Assembly: GCA_040756055.1 (NCBI GenBank)
Contig: JBFLZR010000002.1
Span: forward strand, 460,411-524,410
Direction: 5' to 3'
Source: Candidatus Zixiibacteriota bacterium
GTDB lineage: Bacteria > Zixibacteria > MSB-5A5 > GN15 > FEB-12
Length of the DNA stretch: 64,000 bases
In this document: piece by piece, positions 50,488-61,701 of the stretch
Layout: every line of letters begins with the position of its first letter
Numbering within the stretch: position 1 is the first letter of the stretch
Notes under the pieces: generated by a model
The model's database searches: none
The model's input: only the letters and a program-made list of their open reading frames with translations
Told to the model about the DNA's origin: nothing
Program-made: the position numbers and the translations under genes

Positions 50488-51965
<1,478 letters not shown>

Positions 51966-51988
<23 letters not shown>

Positions 51989-52364
51989 CGACTCCCAAGA
52001 CCCGGGTAATGGTTTCGCTGATTGATTCCGGGGTGAACGGTTTGCGCAGGTATTCCCTGACGCCTTTTTGCTTCAATTCTTCGATTCTGGCGGAGCTTCC
52101 GTCGGTTGAGATAACGACTACAGGAATGTCCTTGAGCAGACCGTCTTCCGCCATCGTATTGAGCAGTTCAATTCCTGTCATGACGGGCATGTTTAAGTCG
52201 CTGAATACGATGTCAACCCAGTTGTCTGCCAGGCAGTCCAACGCTTCCTTGCCGTTGGCGGCTTCGAAAATCTCGTTGATTTCCAGTTTCGTGAGCCGTA
52301 ATGTCTTGGCTACGATCGAGCGGATCGTTTTGGAATCATCCACCACGAGAATATTATAAGCCAT
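51966..52364 (-). CDS. CheY-type response regulator (second copy)
   Basis: A 132-residue single receiver domain. ATG 52364 follows GGAGATAAT. The acidic pocket is VVDDSKTIR, the phospho-acceptor Asp in IVFSDLNMPVMTG and the Lys in YLRKPFTPE. It has no output domain. It is adjacent to the HDOD gene and overlaps the second cheX gene. It may carry the signal to a different target than the first cheY copy. Confidence 0.92.
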
Positions 52365-52368
52365 GGTA

Positions 52369-53244
52369 TTATCTCCTTGCCACTGCAGGGGACGCAGTCG
52401 CCCCTGAAAACATATTCTCGGCATTTTTTATTGACAGTAGAAGCTGGCTGCAGGCCGCCTCCATCACCTGACTGGTCAATTTAAGTCTAAGAATAGATTT
52501 ATAGCACATCCGATACTGAAGGCCGTCACGTCCCAGGCCGAATCCCTCCATCAGACACATGGCATCCGAGATGTGTACGATATCGATGCCTTCCTGGGGC
52601 TCAGGAGCGCCCTCCGGATTGTGATGCCACCTGATATCATCCACAATCGACTGCGGGAATCTCCACTTTTCGGCAATTAGCGCCCCCACCTCGGCGTGAT
52701 CGGTTCCGAGCAGTTTACTTTCAGCCTCCTCGAAAGCGATGTCATCACCTTCGGCCAGATGCTGAAGCTCCTCGAAGTAATCATCGACAAAACCCTGCAT
52801 GGCTATTTTACCGATATCATGGATGAGTCCGCTGGTGAAGATGGCGCCGGAGTCTTTGATATTGAGAAGCCGACAGAGGTTTTCCGCCATCAGAGCAACG
52901 GCAATAGAGTGGCGCCAGAGATCTTCGGCGGACAGATCGTAACCGCGCGCCGGGGTTTTGAGGCTCGAAAATACGAGCGACGACAGTGCGATCTGAAACA
53001 TCCATTTCGTACCTATTCGAAAGTCGGCCTCTGTCACGGTTGTCACCGGTCTGGTAAAGCCAAGGAAGGCTGAATTGGCCGCCTTGAGGACATTCGCAGT
53101 AAGGGCGGGGTCGAGCTGGATAATTTTAGCCATCTCGGCCGGGTCCGCCTCGGGATCATCGAGCAGTGACATCAGTTTATGCGCCACGGCTGGTAAGGTC
53201 GTAAAAGACGTTACTCTGGCTACTATTCTGTCTCTTATACTCAC
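52369..53244 (-). CDS. HDOD domain protein
   Basis: A 291-residue protein of the HDOD (HD-related output domain) family. Here the HD motif is largely kept: LIHDIGKIAMQGF (about residues 143-155) plus an upstream His-like segment LWRHSIAVALMAE, and a downstream DHAEVGALIAEKW with HHNPEG. Start ATG overlaps the cheD stop by four bases (ATGA). HDOD proteins often act in signalling next to cyclic-nucleotide or chemosensory systems, where they bind or regulate rather than hydrolyse. Here it may be an output or accessory protein of the array. Confidence 0.87.
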   Translation of the reverse strand: MSIRDRIVARVTSFTTLPAVAHKLMSLLDDPEADPAEMAKIIQLDPALTANVLKAANSAFLGFTRPVTTVTEADFRIGTKWMFQIALSSLVFSSLKTPARGYDLSAEDLWRHSIAVALMAENLCRLLNIKDSGAIFTSGLIHDIGKIAMQGFVDDYFEELQHLAEGDDIAFEEAESKLLGTDHAEVGALIAEKWRFPQSIVDDIRWHHNPEGAPEPQEGIDIVHISDAMCLMEGFGLGRDGLQYRMCYKSILRLKLTSQVMEAACSQLLLSIKNAENMFSGATASPAVARR

Positions 53245-53720
53245 AGTTCCTGAATTCCCTTCGACGTTTTCACGGTTACTTTGCCTGTATCGACGTTGAA
53301 GTGCACCGTCCTGGAGATGCTTCCCCCAACATCTTCACTCTTAATCAGGATATTGTTTTTCCACAGAATTTTGCGCAGGATTAGATAGTTTCTTTCGCCG
53401 ATGTTGAATATTTTTTTTTGATCCATCAAAGAGGATCCGCCGGCCGCCTTGACAATCAGGCGGTCTTTGACGGCGCCGAGATCGAACACCAATCGCAGCA
53501 GTTCGGTCACACCCGTATCAGCAAACATAGCCGGCGTCTTCTTGGCTTTTTCCGGCGACACTTTCGAAAGCGGAAGCATATAGTGAATCATCCCTGCGAC
53601 TTTAGCTATCGGATCGTACACCGTAACACAAATACACGACCCCAGTGAATAAGTTACCAGTTCATCGTTAGCATCATCAGAAACATAAATCTCGGAAATC
53701 CCAACCACTTTTTGCGGCAT
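53241..53720 (-). CDS. cheD: CheD chemoreceptor glutamine deamidase
   Basis: A 159-residue receptor deamidase that converts receptor glutamines to glutamates. Catalytic Cys is in SLGSCICVTVYDP and catalytic His in GMIHYMLPLS; the conserved Thr region follows (KKTPAMFADTGV). It also binds CheX/CheC-type proteins in known systems. ATG 53720 follows AAGGG. Its stop overlaps the start of the HDOD gene. Confidence 0.9.
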   Translation of the reverse strand: MPQKVVGISEIYVSDDANDELVTYSLGSCICVTVYDPIAKVAGMIHYMLPLSKVSPEKAKKTPAMFADTGVTELLRLVFDLGAVKDRLIVKAAGGSSLMDQKKIFNIGERNYLILRKILWKNNILIKSEDVGGSISRTVHFNVDTGKVTVKTSKGIQEL

Positions 53721-53724
53721 GGCG

Positions 53725-54558
53725 TCAGACCCTTACATATATCGATGGCTTGATACATTTAAGGTGCTTTGCAAATGAGGAAACGCTTTCAGCGTGGCCC
53801 ACGATAAGGTATCCTCCGGGTCTGAGAAGTCGTTCGAACTCGGAGACGAGTTTCGAGCGCATCTCTGGTCCGAAATAGATCATGACGTTGCGGCACATGA
53901 TCAAATCGACGTTCGGTTTTATCGGATAAGGTGAGCGTGAGAGATTGAACTGTCGATACAGTATCATCTTTTTCAATCTCTCGTTCACGGTGTAAACACA
54001 GTCATCCTCCGGTCCCTGCCGCGTGAAATATCTGGTTCTGAGCTCTTTCGGTACCGGCTGCACCGTCTGGCCGGGATAGACACCCCGCCGTGCGGTCTTG
54101 AGTACTTCGGTATTGATGTCAGTGGCCAGTATTCTGACTTCGACGGGTCTGCTCTCGAGCGTCTCACTCAATTCAATCGCCAGGGTGTACGGTTCTTCAC
54201 CGGTGGATGCGGCGGTGGACCAGATTCGAAGCAGACGGGCACCATCGCGAGCCCACTGATCCACGACGCCTCTAATAAAGTTGAAGTGATCGGGCTCCCG
54301 GTAGAAGCTGGTCGTATTGGTTGAGATAGCGTCAACCAGCCGCTGCAGTTCGACCCCGGTCCGGTCCTCGAGAACGTACACGAGGTAGTCTTCGACGTCT
54401 CTCAGTTCAAGCATCCGCATTCTTTTGGCAATCCGGGACCTGACAAGCGTCTCCTTGCCGCTGTTAAGGGAGATCCCCCATCTCTCGAGCACAAGTTGGC
54501 AAATCTTCGCGAAGGTTCGGGGCTTTAATGTTATGGCAGTGGTTGACACGGTATCCAT
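53725..54558 (-). CDS. cheR: CheR chemoreceptor methyltransferase
   Basis: A 277-residue methyltransferase that methylates receptor glutamates from SAM. The N-terminal helical domain (about 10-80) holds RWGISLNSGKETLVRSRIAK-like basic residues that touch the receptor. The SAM domain has RIWSTAASTGEEPYTLAIEL (about residues 108-127), VRILATDINTEVLKTARRG (about 136-154) and VDLIMCRNVMIYF (about 216-228). Length is normal. Eight bases after the first cheY gene. Confidence 0.93.
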   Translation of the reverse strand: MDTVSTTAITLKPRTFAKICQLVLERWGISLNSGKETLVRSRIAKRMRMLELRDVEDYLVYVLEDRTGVELQRLVDAISTNTTSFYREPDHFNFIRGVVDQWARDGARLLRIWSTAASTGEEPYTLAIELSETLESRPVEVRILATDINTEVLKTARRGVYPGQTVQPVPKELRTRYFTRQGPEDDCVYTVNERLKKMILYRQFNLSRSPYPIKPNVDLIMCRNVMIYFGPEMRSKLVSEFERLLRPGGYLIVGHAESVSSFAKHLKCIKPSIYVRV

Positions 54559-54566
54559 AATCGCGA

Positions 54567-54935
54567 CTAACTCCCGGCCGGCAGGAATTTCTCCAGCTTA
54601 GCCGTAATATCTTTTGGCGTAAAAGGCTTGATCAGAAAGTCGTTGGCGCCCGCTTTGATGGCTTCGATTACTTTCTGCTTCTCGCCTTCGGTGGTGACCA
54701 TTACGATAGGCGCCGACACGTTGTCGGCGCGCAGCTTCTTGAGAGCATCGATACCCGACATCCGCGGCATATTCCAGTCCATAAGAATGAGACCGATATC
54801 GGTGTTCGCTGCGACGGCCTCGATGGCCTCCTGGCCGTCGGCTGCCTCAACAATCTCTTTTATGTTGAGGCGTTTGAGCACTCCGATGATGATCTTCCGC
54901 ATGATCTGCGAGTCATCTACTACCAACACTTGCAT
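54567..54935 (-). CDS. cheY: CheY-type response regulator (first copy)
   Basis: A 122-residue receiver. ATG 54935 follows AGGAGG by six bases, inside the end of the upstream cheX gene. Acidic pair LVVDDSQIMRK, phospho-acceptor Asp in LILMDWNMPRMSG, Thr in IVMVTTEGEK and Lys in FLIKPFTPK are all in place. This copy is adjacent to cheR and cheX and is the most likely main output of the array. Confidence 0.93.
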   Translation of the reverse strand: MQVLVVDDSQIMRKIIIGVLKRLNIKEIVEAADGQEAIEAVAANTDIGLILMDWNMPRMSGIDALKKLRADNVSAPIVMVTTEGEKQKVIEAIKAGANDFLIKPFTPKDITAKLEKFLPAGS

Positions 54936-55416
54936 TAGCAACCTCCTGTTCGTGCGAAGGTGTCCGCTTGAGCGTTATGGCCAGGGAAAAGTTGCCCAGT
55001 TCTGTTTCGAAAGGCACTTCGAAAAAGACGGAACTCTTGGAGCTGACGTTGTTCAGGATGCTTCCTCTTACCACGCTCGGCAGGCTGAGGGTGATGGAGT
55101 GTCCCTCGATTTTTGTCTTGGCGGAACCGGCCACGATGTTCACCAGTTCGCCCACTCCATCAATTATCGAGGCATCGACGGTTCTGAATTCCGCGCCGAC
55201 CATTCTGCCGACCACCTTCAATGCCGTCTGCACGGGAAACTTGACCGCCACCACTCCCTTTACCGTTCCCGATAGACCGATAACGCCTATGATGTCCGGC
55301 GGACCGGAATCATCGCGAATAACACATGGTTCGCCTGGCTTGACCGCACAGCCAAGCATACTTTCAAAAAGCTCATTTACCGATTGAATGAACGGGTTAA
55401 CATCTTCAGCCTTCAT
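54913..55416 (-). CDS. cheX: CheX chemotaxis phosphatase (first copy)
   Basis: A 167-residue CheX-type CheY-P phosphatase. The active-site helix GVGELVNIVAGSAKTKIEG carries the Glu and Asn of the E-x-x-N site; GVVAVKFPVQTALKVVGRMV comes before it. Start ATG 55416 overlaps the FapA stop by 11 bases. The stop overlaps the downstream cheY by 23 bases, so the phosphatase and its substrate are translated together. Confidence 0.88.
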   Translation of the reverse strand: MKAEDVNPFIQSVNELFESMLGCAVKPGEPCVIRDDSGPPDIIGVIGLSGTVKGVVAVKFPVQTALKVVGRMVGAEFRTVDASIIDGVGELVNIVAGSAKTKIEGHSITLSLPSVVRGSILNNVSSKSSVFFEVPFETELGNFSLAITLKRTPSHEQEVANASVGSR

Positions 55417-56863
55417 TAGTCACCTCTTCCTTTTCTTCGATTTCAGACATCAACGCAACTTCATTTTTCAATTTGTCAAAATGGGCTATGAACGGCCCGG
55501 CCAGAGTATGCTTCACCTGGTATTGGGAGTCACAAATCCTGATAATCAATCCCGGGTAGGCGATCTTGAGGATTTTGACCTGTACCGAGTGGCTTTGACG
55601 AATTTTGTCCAGTAGGTCCTTTTTCTGCGAATCCAGATTCTCGAGTTCCTCCTGCCCTTCGACGATCTTGAATTGAATTGTCGTCATGGACTCCCTCTGG
55701 GCGGCCGTCAATAAACGCAGGTTCTGATTGAGTCGGCGGTAGCCCTGTTCGAGTTTCTTTATGGCCTCTTTAATTCTGGTGACTTCGACGCTGTTGGCAC
55801 GTAGCGCAGCCTGCAACTCAGGATCCACACCTGCTACGAGCAGGGTGGTCGCTCCTTCCTTTGACCCCGCCTCGCCGACAGTGATACCTCGAGTTCCCCA
55901 CAATTCGCTGCCGATTACTCTGCCTTCGCAGCAATGTATCTCGCCTTTGCTTATGACGATGCTCTGCACAATTTCTCTGTTCACTACCGTATTTTCGCCG
56001 GATTCAAGCACGGCGTTTTGTACGTACTTGGCGTAGATATTTCGTCCGGCCTTTATTTTATTGGAAGATTTGCCTATGATTCCTTCCTTCGCTGTCACAT
56101 CCCCTCCTGCCAGTATATCTGAAGCGTAGGTGATGCCCCGGATTTCGATATCACCGGTAGCTTCGACCTTAAAATCAGAATCAACATCTCCGTTAACAAC
56201 AACGTGTCCGTTGTGCTGGACATTGCCGCTCTCGGTTCCAACACCGTGCTTGACAGTAAATACCTGGTCAACATTGAGGGTCTGACTGACGAGTGTGACG
56301 CGTCCTGAGGATCGTGCTCGGTATCCCCCGACTTCGCCGTCCCAGCACACGTTTGGACCGCCGCGCAAAGTGATCTGCTTTGGCTTTGGGACGGTAATTG
56401 TCTTGCCGTAGACATCTTTTCCGTCCTTGCCCGGTATCGGTGAGTGGACCTTCACCAGTAGCTGGCCCTCATCGACGGATGGATTTTCGATCTTCTGATG
56501 AAAGTCGATCCGTTTGGTTTCGGGGTCTATGTAATAGCCCTCTTTGAAATAGTCTTCCGTCCATTCCAATTTGGCGTCCATCGGCATTACGGGCGGCTTT
56601 CCTGCCACCACCGGCAGGTTGGTGATTCCTTCATTCGCTGATCGAGCCTCGTTAAGAGCTTCTTCCAGTAATAGCATATCCGGTTCGGCCGTTACATTCA
56701 TCTGCTTGAGACGGACCTGTATTCTGTCCATTGACTGGGTGCTGGCGGCGAATTCTGCCGAACAGGATAGATAGACAGTCATCTTGTCTTCGGTCACGGT
56801 CAGTTCGTATTCGACCGGCGCGGCTTCAGCTTGCTGCGAGCCATTTTCTGTAGCTTCTTCCAT
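55406..56863 (-). CDS. FapA (DUF342) family protein
   Basis: A 485-residue cytoplasmic protein. After an N-terminal domain (about 10-170) there is a right-handed beta-helix-like region of short turns (FKVEATGDIEIRGITYASDI, LAGGDVTAKEGIIGK, IKAGRNIYAKYVQNAVLESG, EIHCCEGRVIGSELWGTRG). Then comes a long coiled coil (about 345-430, TRIKEAIKKLEQGYRRLNQN and following). This is the FapA architecture; Vibrio FapA proteins couple to signalling, and many relatives sit in chemosensory operons. Its position between the receptor and cheX suggests a scaffold or sensor. ATG 56863 has only a weak ribosome site. Confidence 0.82.
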   Translation of the reverse strand: MEEATENGSQQAEAAPVEYELTVTEDKMTVYLSCSAEFAASTQSMDRIQVRLKQMNVTAEPDMLLLEEALNEARSANEGITNLPVVAGKPPVMPMDAKLEWTEDYFKEGYYIDPETKRIDFHQKIENPSVDEGQLLVKVHSPIPGKDGKDVYGKTITVPKPKQITLRGGPNVCWDGEVGGYRARSSGRVTLVSQTLNVDQVFTVKHGVGTESGNVQHNGHVVVNGDVDSDFKVEATGDIEIRGITYASDILAGGDVTAKEGIIGKSSNKIKAGRNIYAKYVQNAVLESGENTVVNREIVQSIVISKGEIHCCEGRVIGSELWGTRGITVGEAGSKEGATTLLVAGVDPELQAALRANSVEVTRIKEAIKKLEQGYRRLNQNLRLLTAAQRESMTTIQFKIVEGQEELENLDSQKKDLLDKIRQSHSVQVKILKIAYPGLIIRICDSQYQVKHTLAGPFIAHFDKLKNEVALMSEIEEKEEVTNEG

Positions 56864-56884
56864 TGTTGCCCCGTTCAGCCGTCA

Positions 56885-56909
56885 GGGTGCGGGTGTGTCG
56901 TCCGCACCC
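56885..56909 (-). terminator. hairpin between the receptor and FapA genes
   Basis: An 8-bp stem GGGTGCGG/CCGCACCC (56885-56892 with 56902-56909) lies in the 105-base space after the receptor stop. There is no T run, so it is more likely a partial attenuator or RNA-stability element lowering expression of the genes downstream of the receptor. Confidence 0.4.
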
Positions 56910-56968
56910 CGATCGGCGCATGATGTCTGCGCGTGAAGCTTTATCAATTCCTTCACGCCCGTCGGGAA

Positions 56969-58771
56969 TTAGAACTCAACGAGTTCTTCTTCCAGCGGTA
57001 TCACCTCCTCCGGTGAGCGTCCGGCTTTCGGTGGCACTGTTGTTCTGGTCATCCCTTTTGCCGGTCTACCCGGATCCCTCTGTTCCAGTCTCGGGCGAGC
57101 AGCCTTTTGGAGGGCGCTCTTGTCAACTTGCTGCGGTCGGGCATGTCCGGAGGAACCATCGCTGATCTTGAAAGCGTTGACTGTTTTCAGCAACTGGTCG
57201 GCCTGTTCGTTGAGTTCCTGCGAAGCGCTGGCGGACTCCTCCGCGTTGGCGGCGTTCTGTTGGGTTACGGAATCGAGTTGGCCCACGGCGACGTTCACCT
57301 GTTCGATTCCCTGTGCCTGCTCTCCGGAAGCGGCGGCGATCTCAGCCACGAGGTCATTTACCTTGGTGGATCCATCGGTAATTTCATCGAGAGATTTCGC
57401 AACCTCGGCGCTAATGGCCACACCGTTGTTAGCGTTGCTGACCGACTCTTCGATCATATTGGCGGTATTCTTCGAGGCTTCGGCTGATCTCTGGGCCAGA
57501 TTTCGAACTTCCTCAGCCACCACGGCAAAGCCTTTGCCTGCCTCTCCGGCGCGAGCGGCCTCGACGGCGGCATTGAGAGCAAGCAGGTTGGTCTGGAAGG
57601 CTATCTCATCGATAGTCTTGAGAATCTTTGCCGTCTGGTCGGACGACACCTTGATTTTTTCGACGGCCTCTTTCATTCTCACCATGGCCTTGTTGCCCTG
57701 AAGGGCAGCCTCGCGAGCCGAAGTAGCCAACACTTTGGCCTGATTGGCATTTTCGGCGTTCTGCTTGGTCATGCTCGACATCTGTTCCAGGCTGCTGGAG
57801 ATTTCCTGCAGCGAGCCGGCCTGCTCGGAAGCACCTTGCGCCAGGCTCTGGCTGCCGGAACTGATCTGCGCGCTGGCCGAAGCTACTTGCTCCGCGATCT
57901 GCGCAGTCATGCGGAGTGGATCGACGATTAACTGGAGGGTATTGTTCATGCCCTGTACGATCTTGGTGAAATCCCCGCGATGCTTTGATTCGTCGGCACG
58001 CAACATGAGGTCGCCATCGGCGGCGGCGTCCGCCAGCATGTTGGCGTCATTTACCAACAGATTGACCGCATCAATACAAGCGTTCAGGTTGTTCTTTATA
58101 TCATTGAAGTCGCCCTTATATTCATCGGTAATCTTTTCCGGAATATCTCCCTGGGCGATCTTATCGACATAGTCAGCAGCCACCTTCAAAGGGTTCACCA
58201 CTGCGTCGAGTAGCGCGTTCACTCCCTCGCGCAGTTTTTTATAGTCACCTGTGGAGTGGCCAATCTCGGCGCGATCATCGAGTCTGCCGTCGATGGCGCT
58301 ATCGATGAGGCGACCTACTTCGGCGAGCGTTTCCTTCTGTTCGGCCTGACTCAGGATAACCTCGATACCTCCGAGAGGGTTGCCGTCTTCGTCGAAGACA
58401 GCGGAGCAACTGGCGGCAATCGGAATCTTCTTACCATCACGGGTCTCCATCACGGTTTCACCGATGATGGCTTCTCCGGTCCGCATGCAGTTCTTAATGG
58501 TACAGTTGCTGGTTCCACACAGCGGTGTTTTGGCCAGCTCGGCGCAGGTCATTCTACCGACCACCTCTTCCCTCGACCAGCCTGAGGCCTTCAAGGCCGC
58601 GTCGTTGATGCGCTGGATGATGAGATTCGGATCGGTGACGAACATCGGAGCGGCCACAGAAGCAAGAATATTTTCGAGCTCCCATACTTTTCTCGCCGCG
58701 TTGGCCGTCGTTTTACCCTTCGCTTTGCTCTTGACGGCACGTCCTGACTTGGGTTCTGACTTTCGAGACAT
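56969..58771 (-). CDS. soluble methyl-accepting chemoreceptor with PAS and HAMP domains
   Basis: A 600-residue receptor without any membrane segment, so cytoplasmic. ATG 58771 follows TAAAAGGAG. A PAS domain (about residues 28-140) includes the cysteine pattern [20 protein letters not shown] (C-x4-C-x4-C). HAMP-like repeats follow (about 150-275, [37 protein letters not shown]), then the signalling coiled coil. Its hairpin tip, [20 protein letters not shown] then [17 protein letters not shown], binds CheA and CheW. The methylation helices contain Gln/Glu pairs. A flexible tail of about 65 residues ends in EEELVEF, which could be a docking tail for CheR/CheD. Confidence 0.92.
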
Positions 58772-58814
58772 TTCAATTCTCCTTTTAGTCTATTTATTCT
58801 CTTGCTCTTTTTCG

Positions 58815-59396
58815 TTACTGTGCCGATTCAGCGGCTTCTTCGGCAACCATGCCGCCTTCGACAGCCGGTGGCGCCTGATCGACTTTGTCCGCAATCGCGA
58901 CATCGCTGGCCGTAAGGACCTTGTCGATATCGAGTAGAATTTTTACTTCATTCTTAACCTTCCCCATACCAAGAATGAAATCGGTATTTACGTTGCCTCC
59001 GAAACTCGGCGCTTCCTCGATGTCGCCATCCTGGATGTCCAGAACTTCAGACACGGCATCGACGAGGATTCCCATTTGAACGGAACTGTCCTTCCCCACG
59101 ACCTCCACCACGATAATACAGGTTTCTTCGGTGTCAGCCCTGTTGTCCATACCGAACTTGGAGCGAAGGTCCAGTACCGGTATGACTTTACCTCTTAGAT
59201 TGATGACGCCGCGGATATAAGGCGGCGTTCTTGGCACCTTAGTGATATCCATCAATCCAATAATTTCACGGACCTTGAGGATCTCCAGGCCGTATTCCTC
59301 CGCGGCCAGACGGAAGGTAAGGTATTTGCCGGCCTTACTTTCCGCACCTGATGAGGCCGCTCTGAGGGCTCCGTTTACATCCTGTGCCCTTGCCAT
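58815..59396 (-). CDS. cheW: CheW coupling protein
   Basis: A 193-residue scaffold linking receptor to CheA. ATG 59396 follows AAAAGGAGG. The SH3-like double barrel has YLTFRLAAEEYGLEILKVRE (about 24-43), TKVPRTPPYIRGVINLRGKV (about 53-72; the RGVINLRG block is diagnostic) and FILGMGKVKNEVKILLDIDK near the end. A C-terminal acidic tail of about 25 residues follows. Confidence 0.94.
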   Translation of the reverse strand: MARAQDVNGALRAASSGAESKAGKYLTFRLAAEEYGLEILKVREIIGLMDITKVPRTPPYIRGVINLRGKVIPVLDLRSKFGMDNRADTEETCIIVVEVVGKDSSVQMGILVDAVSEVLDIQDGDIEEAPSFGGNVNTDFILGMGKVKNEVKILLDIDKVLTASDVAIADKVDQAPPAVEGGMVAEEAAESAQ

Positions 59397-59460: not shown

Positions 59461-61701
59461 CTACGTCTGTTCCATTGCCGTGGTGGTGGGCACGGTGCCT
59501 GCTTTGGTCAGACTCCCGTGTCCGGTCATACCGGCAAGCTCCATCAGTCCACTTATATCGATAATCAATCCTACATTACCGTTCGAGAGAATAGCGCCGC
59601 CCGATATCCATTTCTGTGTCATAAATATCGGACCGAGGCTTTTGATGACTGTTTGTCTTTGGCCGAGAAGTTCATCGACTATCAACCCTACGACTTTTTC
59701 GCTCTCCTCCACCACGACAACGACGCCTTCGGTAAACTCGCTGCTTTCCGGCTCCAGGCCGAACAGATCGGCGGTTTTCACCAGTGGCAGCGGCTTGCCG
59801 CGCCAGTCGATCATCTGACTGCGCCCACAGACGGTGAAGATCATATCCGGTGTCAGATTCAAAGACTCGATTATCGACATGGTGGGTACGATGTACCGGT
59901 GCTGGGCTATGCGGACCAGCATGCCGTCGATAATCGCGAGCGTGAGAGGCAGCTTGATGGTGAATTTCGTGCCGTCACCCGGCGAAGATTCAATCTCGAC
60001 GTGTCCGCGCATGGAGTCGATGTTTTTCTTAACGACGTCCATGCCGACGCCGCGCCCGGATATGTCCGTTACCTTTGCAGCGGTTGAGAAACCAGGAAGC
60101 ATAATCAGGTTATAGATTTCACGGTCGGTGAGATCCCGTCCGGTCGGAACGAGTCCTTTTTCCCTGCCTTTGGCCAAAATCTTGTCTTTATCGAGCCCGC
60201 GTCCGTCGTCCTCGATCTCCATGCAGATATTGCCCCCCTTGTGGTAGGCTCTTATCCAGAGATTGCCCTGAAGCGGTTTCCCCACCCGGGCTCGCTCATC
60301 GGCGGTTTCCAAACCGTGGTCGATAGAGTTGCGGACCATGTGCATGAGAGGATCACCGATCTTTTCGACGATGCTGCGGTCGACTTCGGAATCCTCACCG
60401 GAAAGATGCAGGTTGACGTTTTTGCCGGATCTTTTCGAGAGATCCCTCACCGCGCGGGCAAGTTTCTGGAAGGTGGATTGTACCGGCACCAGTCTCATGG
60501 CCATTCCCATTTCCTGGAGTTCGCGCGTAATCTTGTTCAGGTGAGAGATGTTTTTTATTACCTGGGTGGACGCGACGGCCAGTATCTCTTCGTTCTGACT
60601 TATCATCGATTCGGCTATTACCAGTTCGCCGATGGTGTCCACGAGTCGATCCAGACGACGGGTGTCGATTTTCACCTGTTCTTTTACGGTGGTTCCGCGG
60701 CGGGAACGCTCCTGATCCCTCAGGGCGTGAATTACCGCTTTCGAAGAGACCTTCCCCTGTTTGACCAGAGTCTGACCGATCTTTTCATCGGGTGATTGTT
60801 TTCTTGCCAGCGCGTCGTCGATATCGGCCTGGGACAACGCACCCATGTCGACAAGAACGTCACCCACCCGATCGGACAATTCCGCTTCAATAGAGTCGAG
60901 GTCAGTATCATTCTCAGCGTTCGCGATCAGGTACTTGAGCTTCTCAATCAGTGAAATTACATTGCCGGCGGCATCGAAAGATTCACCGGATCGCATAACA
61001 TCCCTGACGCCGGTTAACATCGCCCGCATGGCATCAATGGAACTCAGGATGGCGTCAGCTATCTGTCCTTGAATGATTACTGTTCCCTTCCGGGCAAGAT
61101 CAAGGAGTGTTTCCGACTCGTGGGCCAGCATGGAAATCGGCTTTAGTTCGAGAAAGCCGGCGGCGCCCTTGATAGTGTGAAAGCTTCGGAAAATGGCATT
61201 AATTGCCTCGGCGTTACCGGTGTCGGATTCGAGATCCATGAGCATTTGTTCCGCGGTAGCGCAGTGCTCTTCGGCCTCGATAACAAAATCCTCAATCAGC
61301 GAGGTGTTGGTGCTGTCGACGGTTATAAGCAACGGCTCGGACTTTGCTTCGTCTGCCTGCGGAATTTCGGTCTTTTGAGTAGCCTGATCCGGACCGAAAC
61401 CATCCGGAAACTTGACTTCGGACAGGTCGCGTTTTTCGACGATAATTTGCTGGAGGGCGTTAAGGGCTTCGCCGACATTCGTCAGACAGTCCGACCGGTC
61501 AGGGACATCGTTGAGAATTATCTTCTCCAACTGCTCGGCGCATTTCTGCGTCGCCGATTTGACCGCATCGGGGCTATCTTCCACGTGTGTGAGGAGGGTG
61601 AGGAAGTCTTCGTGCAACCTGGCCAGCGCCGGTAAATCATCGACCGATGCCAGTACCAAATCAGATGCAAGCGATTCGACCCGTGTTTCCAACTGGTCCA
61701 T
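59461..61701 (-). CDS. cheA: CheA histidine kinase with an MshEN-like insert
   Basis: A 746-residue chemosensory kinase, first gene of the operon. Residues 1-130 are an extra helical region. The phosphotransfer domain carries the acceptor His175 in FRSFHTIKGAAGFL. Between it and the dimerisation helices is an inserted tandem repeat at about 278-330, RVGDVLVDMGALSQADIDDA and KIGQTLVKQGKVSSKAVIHA. This matches the 24-residue pattern of MshEN (GspE N-terminal) domains. Then come dimerisation (DTRRLDRLVDTIGELVIAES), ATPase (H-box HMVRNSIDHGLE, N/G1 EIEDDGRGLD, G2 SGRGVGMDVV) and a CheW-like regulatory domain. It has no receiver. It autophosphorylates and passes phosphate to CheY and CheB. Confidence 0.93.
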   Translation of the reverse strand: MDQLETRVESLASDLVLASVDDLPALARLHEDFLTLLTHVEDSPDAVKSATQKCAEQLEKIILNDVPDRSDCLTNVGEALNALQQIIVEKRDLSEVKFPDGFGPDQATQKTEIPQADEAKSEPLLITVDSTNTSLIEDFVIEAEEHCATAEQMLMDLESDTGNAEAINAIFRSFHTIKGAAGFLELKPISMLAHESETLLDLARKGTVIIQGQIADAILSSIDAMRAMLTGVRDVMRSGESFDAAGNVISLIEKLKYLIANAENDTDLDSIEAELSDRVGDVLVDMGALSQADIDDALARKQSPDEKIGQTLVKQGKVSSKAVIHALRDQERSRRGTTVKEQVKIDTRRLDRLVDTIGELVIAESMISQNEEILAVASTQVIKNISHLNKITRELQEMGMAMRLVPVQSTFQKLARAVRDLSKRSGKNVNLHLSGEDSEVDRSIVEKIGDPLMHMVRNSIDHGLETADERARVGKPLQGNLWIRAYHKGGNICMEIEDDGRGLDKDKILAKGREKGLVPTGRDLTDREIYNLIMLPGFSTAAKVTDISGRGVGMDVVKKNIDSMRGHVEIESSPGDGTKFTIKLPLTLAIIDGMLVRIAQHRYIVPTMSIIESLNLTPDMIFTVCGRSQMIDWRGKPLPLVKTADLFGLEPESSEFTEGVVVVVEESEKVVGLIVDELLGQRQTVIKSLGPIFMTQKWISGGAILSNGNVGLIIDISGLMELAGMTGHGSLTKAGTVPTTTAMEQT

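Follow-up and report, generated by a model that had tools for sequence, protein, structure and literature searches.

A predicted cyclic di-GMP receptor domain of the MshEN type within the CheA kinase of a Candidatus Zixiibacteriota bacterium

Introduction

The known connections between cyclic di-GMP (c-di-GMP) and bacterial chemotaxis use separate adaptors or receptors, such as MapZ–CheR1 and the PilZ chemoreceptors, and the locus described here raises the question of whether the messenger can also be sensed within the chemotaxis kinase CheA itself. The window, a stretch of 64,000 nucleotides of a Candidatus Zixiibacteriota genome, encodes a CheA for which the original prediction, made from the sequence, had proposed a c-di-GMP-binding tandem repeat between the phosphotransfer and dimerisation domains. 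If true, sensing within the only CheA of a flagellated cell would wire the messenger to chemotaxis as directly as possible; research on c-di-GMP would gain a defined target, and research on chemotaxis a kinase that takes a small-molecule input of its own besides its receptors. Such kinase-internal gain control by c-di-GMP would be a control point for which we found no experimental description.

MshEN domains were listed together with CheA, alongside CheX, receiver, and HD-GYP partners, in the main text of Wang et al. 2016 (PMC5013675), and a 2021 paper in mBio counts chemotaxis proteins among the MshEN proteins that are still uncharacterised. No study of a c-di-GMP-binding CheA was found in the open-access literature, most subscription papers being outside the scope of the search. 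The MshEN–CheA pairing is thus already known from the 2016 listing; what is added here is the cross-phylum conservation of the domain, its tandem doubling, a lineage-specific Lys/Arg, and the context of a sole CheA.

Domain Architecture of the CheA Protein

The CheA protein consists of 746 residues, and a Pfam scan identifies Hpt (residues 135-227), H-kinase_dim (342-402), HATPase_c (450-587), and CheW (593-721) domains. The P1 signature FHTIKG lies at residues 174-179, and P1 with its HxxKG motif, P3, P4, and P5 follow one another in the order of a CheA. The scan returned no family match for P2, a domain that is optional rather than defining and that many true CheAs lack. The features of the gene, all on the minus strand, are as follows.

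59461-61701, minus strand: CheA, with an N-terminal helical domain, P1 (Hpt, HTIKG with His175), MshEN_N, P3, P4, and P5 (ORF, Pfam, AlphaFold2)
60922-61305, minus strand: P1 phosphotransfer domain, residues ~133-260 (Pfam Hpt; AlphaFold2 helices)
60712-60870, minus strand: MshEN_N-type putative c-di-GMP-binding domain, residues 278-330 (NF053729; fold match to MshE/PilF c-di-GMP complexes; conservation in all close orthologues found)
60799-60870, minus strand: MshEN motif 1, RVGDVLVDMGALSQADIDDALARK, residues 278-301, with Lys at the usual Gln position (motif match)
60784-60798, minus strand: spacer QSPDE, five residues, 302-306 (period of 29, as in MshE)
60712-60783, minus strand: MshEN motif 2, KIGQTLVKQGKVSSKAVIHALRDQ, residues 307-330 (motif match)
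60496-60678, minus strand: P3 dimerisation domain, residues 342-402 (Pfam H-kinase_dim; the only such domain of the genome)
59539-60354, minus strand: P4 ATPase (450-587) and P5 CheW-like (593-721) domains (Pfam)

In the full-length AlphaFold2 model (mean pLDDT 81), low-confidence linkers at residues 266-275 and 334-344 flank the MshEN domain between P1 and P3, and because of this low confidence they are probably flexible. Residues 1-90 (61434-61701, minus strand) are predicted with confidence (pLDDT 91-97) to form a four-helix domain, which is without a Pfam match and occurs in the close orthologues too.

The Tandem Motif and Its Family

The predicted span, 60712-60870, corresponds exactly to the 53 residues 278-330, and the two near-copies described there are borne out as two 24-residue motifs separated by a five-residue spacer. 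Both RVGDVLVDMGALSQADIDDALARK and KIGQTLVKQGKVSSKAVIHALRDQ fit the relaxed 24-residue motif of Wang et al. 2016 (PMC5013675), and the motif-to-motif period of 29 equals that of Vibrio cholerae MshE. The extra residue that had been read before the Gln of motif 1 proved mistaken: position 24 is a Lys in place of Gln, and the Gln that was seen is position 25, within the spacer; the constant period of 29 residues and the orthologues leave no freedom in the register. In 20,000 shuffles of the CheA sequence, single motifs arose at 0.0026 per protein and the tandem arrangement not once.

Among the family models, the NCBIfam model NF053729, an MshE-related c-di-GMP domain, aligns over the full length of the model with residues 278-330 at 44.5 bits (E 9.5e-12; cut-off 38 bits), and the NfrB family model also matches the segment. 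The profile search that had been suggested therefore succeeded with NF053729 but not with Pfam PF05157, a model of 90 positions that gives no match to this CheA at E-values up to 1. PF05157 covers a longer domain comprising MshEN_N and part of MshEN_C, and a match to it is not defining for MshEN_N, because the receptor as published is defined by 53 residues and can do without the remainder. Weak Pfam matches on the segment (phasin, DUF4388, and TRCF; E 0.02-0.07) lie below their cut-offs and were not used. A phmmer search of PDB sequences retrieved Thermus PilF (3.4e-11) and V. cholerae MshE (1.9e-4).

Position 1 is occupied by Arg278 and Lys307, which fit the extended Arg/Lys/Leu consensus (PMC11731258), and position 3 by Gly280 and Gly309; position 24 is Gln330 in motif 2 and Lys301 in motif 1. 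Apart from Lys301, the departures from the consensus are conservative, with Val, Ile, and Lys at tolerant positions, and a Lys at position 24 is permitted by the relaxed motif given in the main text of PMC5013675. Residues 278-330 almost certainly belong to the MshEN family of c-di-GMP receptors.

Predicted Fold

An AlphaFold2 model of residues 265-346, built with 51 sequences, shows four helices at the expected places, with moderate confidence (pLDDT 72 overall, ~80-85 in the core). The fold check proposed at the outset agreed with the assignment: when the model was compared with the PDB by Foldseek, all 11 of the top 11 matches, including 5htl, 8pfa, and 8pdk, were MshE or Thermus PilF GSPII domains, at a probability of ~1.0 and an rmsd of 1.7-2.1 A over 51-55 columns, and most of the matched entries had been crystallised with c-di-GMP. 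The small size of the domain keeps the Foldseek E-values weak, the best being 0.04, and the sequence result therefore carries equal weight. VIA-align gave Z-scores of up to 8.7 for the same MshE/PilF entries, with unrelated chains at ~4 and below.

Conservation of the Contact Positions

In a tree of the CheA core, the window CheA belongs to a clade of 17 members that has full support, and all 17 carry the domain. The original prediction had tied ligand binding to the retention of Arg, Gly, and Gln positions in orthologues; Arg278, both glycines, the basic start of motif 2, and Gln330 are each kept in 17/17 clade members, but the motif-1 Gln varies, position 24 being K in ten, R in four, and Q in three. 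Among 35 more distant CheAs, 34 have Gln there, and the motif-2 Gln is present in 52/52. Over these 52 CheAs, the polar contact positions (1, 3, and 24) have an entropy of 0.66 bits versus 2.18 bits for the other non-core positions (permutation p 0.0004). Exposed ligand-contact residues are thus kept while neighbouring exposed positions drift, which is the trace expected of a live ligand site; if the bundle served only for structure or docking, there would be little reason for the contact residues to persist.

Distribution among Relatives

A survey of other CheAs, as had been proposed, found the same domain in the same place in several phyla: Hydrogenedentota, Fibrobacterota, Planctomycetota, Armatimonadota, Omnitrophota, Muiribacteriota, and Riflebacteria, in addition to the Candidatus Zixiibacteriota that make up most of the nearest named relatives. 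NF053729 matches 51/51 homologous CheA segments. Among the 110 genomes of the phylum that are at least 80% complete, ~15 encode this CheA with a strong match across the domain and P3, and a few more encode weaker forms. In other members of the phylum the CheA is shorter, and a low-complexity linker replaces the domain; this is also the state of the CheAs of 585-655 residues within the same family and order, which rules out a domain general to all CheAs. Because related CheAs exist without it, the domain is not essential to the CheA enzyme.

Many Hydrogenedentota CheAs carry two domains in tandem, with periods of ~31 residues. Two MshEN domains, and hence four motifs before P3, were observed at L113, L059, L056, L075, and other Hydrogenedentota and Planctomycetota CheA loci, where the spacer is ~7 residues rather than 5.

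Over the whole quick CheA tree, the presence of the domain requires 11 changes, at least four of them forced by the starred branches, frequencies in this tree being biased because the sample was picked with a domain-containing query. A single simple gain is at odds with these 11 changes, and gain and loss are not separable. A divergent CheA in the same family (locus L014, genome G015) has a decayed MshEN region with no motif match and 39.7 bits to the local model, a sequence pattern that makes loss of binding likely there. The three genomes of the same genus that were searched (G001-G003) gave no CheA match of this type, and chemotaxis genes seem to be patchy within the genus. The CheA at L042 (DYGG01000015.1, a metagenome-assembled genome titled Ignavibacterium sp.) is identical in score and motifs to that of G030 (L013), which is of the same order as the window, and the label probably misnames the organism.

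Chemosensory Cluster and Cellular Context

The CheA gene belongs to a chemosensory cluster, the remainder of which (50491-59396, minus strand; Pfam) has nearly the same order at L042 and at L055, the latter in Hydrogenedentota. Its genes, identified by Pfam and all on the minus strand, are as follows.

58818-59396, minus strand: CheW
56972-58771, minus strand: PAS-HAMP chemoreceptor
55409-56863, minus strand: FapA
54916-55416, minus strand: first CheX
54567-54941, minus strand: CheY
53728-54558, minus strand: CheR
53244-53720, minus strand: CheD
52372-53244, minus strand: HDOD protein
51969-52424, minus strand: receiver
51518-51988, minus strand: second CheX
50491-51663, minus strand: CheB

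The order is thus CheA-CheW-chemoreceptor-FapA-CheX-CheY-CheR-CheD-HDOD-receiver-CheX-CheB. L042 matches it closely from FapA onward, and the similar order at L055 reads CheW, CheX, CheY, CheD, CheR, CheD, HDOD, receiver, and CheX. The HDOD protein and FapA lie within the chemotaxis cluster; both recur at L042, and HDOD also at L055.

A search for the P3 domain found one CheA in the genome; at a genome completeness of 97.7%, a missed second copy is unlikely though possible. The genome also contains four GGDEF matches, one PilZ match, and the flagellar genes FlhA and FliD, so that the cell has both a c-di-GMP system and a flagellum between which the kinase could form a link. NF053729 matches five other places in the genome, one of them below the cut-off, and PilB-like ATPases are among them. 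Also among them are two ORFs on contigs C9 and C2 of the genome (L036, 403 residues, on C9; L037, 290 residues, on C2), which carry MshEN-type motifs above the NF053729 cut-off. Their proteins, which presumably resemble DUF4388 proteins, are possible further c-di-GMP receptors to judge from these motifs.

Predicted Ligand Binding and Proposed Mechanism

Published measurements on other MshEN domains bear on whether the CheA version could bind. Gly replacement in the MshE motifs abolishes binding, according to the main text of PMC5013675, and in other work Ala for Gly costs ~10-fold and Ile for Leu at two stacking positions 2.4-fold (PMC12002112). In PilF GSPII-B, a Lys at position 1 is associated with very high affinity, and PilF with Glu in place of the motif-1 Gln still has a KD of 950 nM (PMC11731258); the motif-1 Lys of CheA therefore need not abolish binding. 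A Lys close to the phosphates may even help; we found no tested MshEN domain with Lys at the motif-1 Gln position in the literature. The four-helix subdomain binds without MshEN_C, as seen with an isolated MshEN N-subdomain and with a rebuilt PilF 9-65 at 695 nM (PMC12002112). In NfrB, c-di-GMP is bound by an MshEN domain that seems to switch on an enzyme of an unrelated kind (PMC8669469). We consider it likely that the CheA domain binds c-di-GMP, and, given binding, there is a somewhat better than even case that it adjusts the phosphorylation of P1.

Taken as a whole, the best explanation, and a probable one, is that an MshEN_N receptor domain in CheA binds c-di-GMP and adjusts the kinase; the domain identity, the predicted fold, and the conserved contact residues are observed, whereas we infer that the ligand is bound, how tightly, and in which direction and by what means the kinase responds. 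Residues 278-330 would bind one c-di-GMP, half per motif, and the domain would sit on flexible linkers between P1, which bears the phosphorylated histidine, and the P3 helices, in the usual place of P2. Binding would fold or dock the domain and, most likely, change the reach or the orientation of P1 with respect to the P4 ATPase in the partner subunit, altering autophosphorylation and phosphotransfer to CheY. As c-di-GMP rises, a flagellated cell could then retune or switch off chemotactic steering with no separate adaptor, and suppression of steering when c-di-GMP is abundant would agree with the familiar switch from motile to sessile life. With the domain in the sole CheA, the "settle down" messenger may therefore act directly on the kinase that controls swimming.

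Other readings of the same domain are less probable. The ligand might be bound while the kinase chemistry is unaffected, the domain bringing CheA or the array to a place or partner such as the pole or the pilus machinery. MshEN domains are best known from type IV pilus ATPases, and the MshEN-bearing PilB-like ATPases of this genome and the probably flexible linkers would suit such a tether; however, a tether could sit anywhere, and in the inspected family members its place is between P1 and P3, so that we regard this reading as unlikely. Alternatively, ligand binding may have been lost and the domain retained as a docking module, for instance as a P2 stand-in that holds CheY or CheB. The missing Pfam match for P2 and the Lys/Arg at the motif-1 Gln in most of the clade could be understood in this way, and non-binding relatives exist: the XpsE GSPII domain does not bind c-di-GMP, according to the main text of PMC5013675, and neither does PilF GSPII-A, where an extra N-terminal helical turn and contacts with its C-terminal subdomain also matter (PMC12002112). 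The main text of PMC5013675 gives XpsE many key changes (G11V, L29R, R38G, G40L, L54H, and Q61V), however, against one non-conservative change in CheA, and near-invariant exposed contact residues among freely varying exposed positions speak for a ligand, which makes a pure docking role quite improbable. A chance likeness of a helical linker without MshEN ancestry could draw on the PF05157 miss, but it is refuted by the shuffles, the curated NF053729 model, the fold match, and the 51 matching homologues, and we give it next to no credence.

Extending the preferred reading, in which c-di-GMP adjusts the kinase, beyond this genome is more tentative. It is possible, at somewhat less than an even chance, that a CheA family across several little-studied phyla is directly gated by c-di-GMP and sets chemotaxis gain inside the kinase, with one domain in Zixibacteria and tandem pairs, with four motifs and potentially two ligands, in Hydrogenedentota.

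Comparison with Known Systems

The CheA domain resembles those of V. cholerae MshE (5htl) and Thermus PilF GSPII-B (8pdk) in its two 24-residue motifs and four-helix bundle, and MshE also in its five-residue spacer, and it superimposes on them with an rmsd of 1.7-1.8 A over 53 columns at 26-31% identity. Unlike them, it has no following MshEN_C, its host is a histidine kinase rather than a pilus or secretion ATPase, and the motif-1 Gln is replaced by Lys. The MshEN–CheA proteins of Wang et al. 2016 show the same pairing, which is listed only; experiments with the CheA form are absent from the main text (PMC5013675). A regulatory MshEN add-on to an unrelated enzyme is also found in E. coli NfrB, a glycosyltransferase–MshEN protein (PMC8669469), although NfrB is a membrane polysaccharide synthase with MshEN in its C-terminal part. 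According to PMC6370697 and PMC6454048, c-di-GMP also acts on chemotaxis signalling through MapZ–CheR1 in Pseudomonas aeruginosa and the PilZ chemoreceptor Cbp1 in Azorhizobium; in contrast to the CheA described here, these systems use PilZ domains, and their targets are a methyltransferase and a receptor rather than the kinase.
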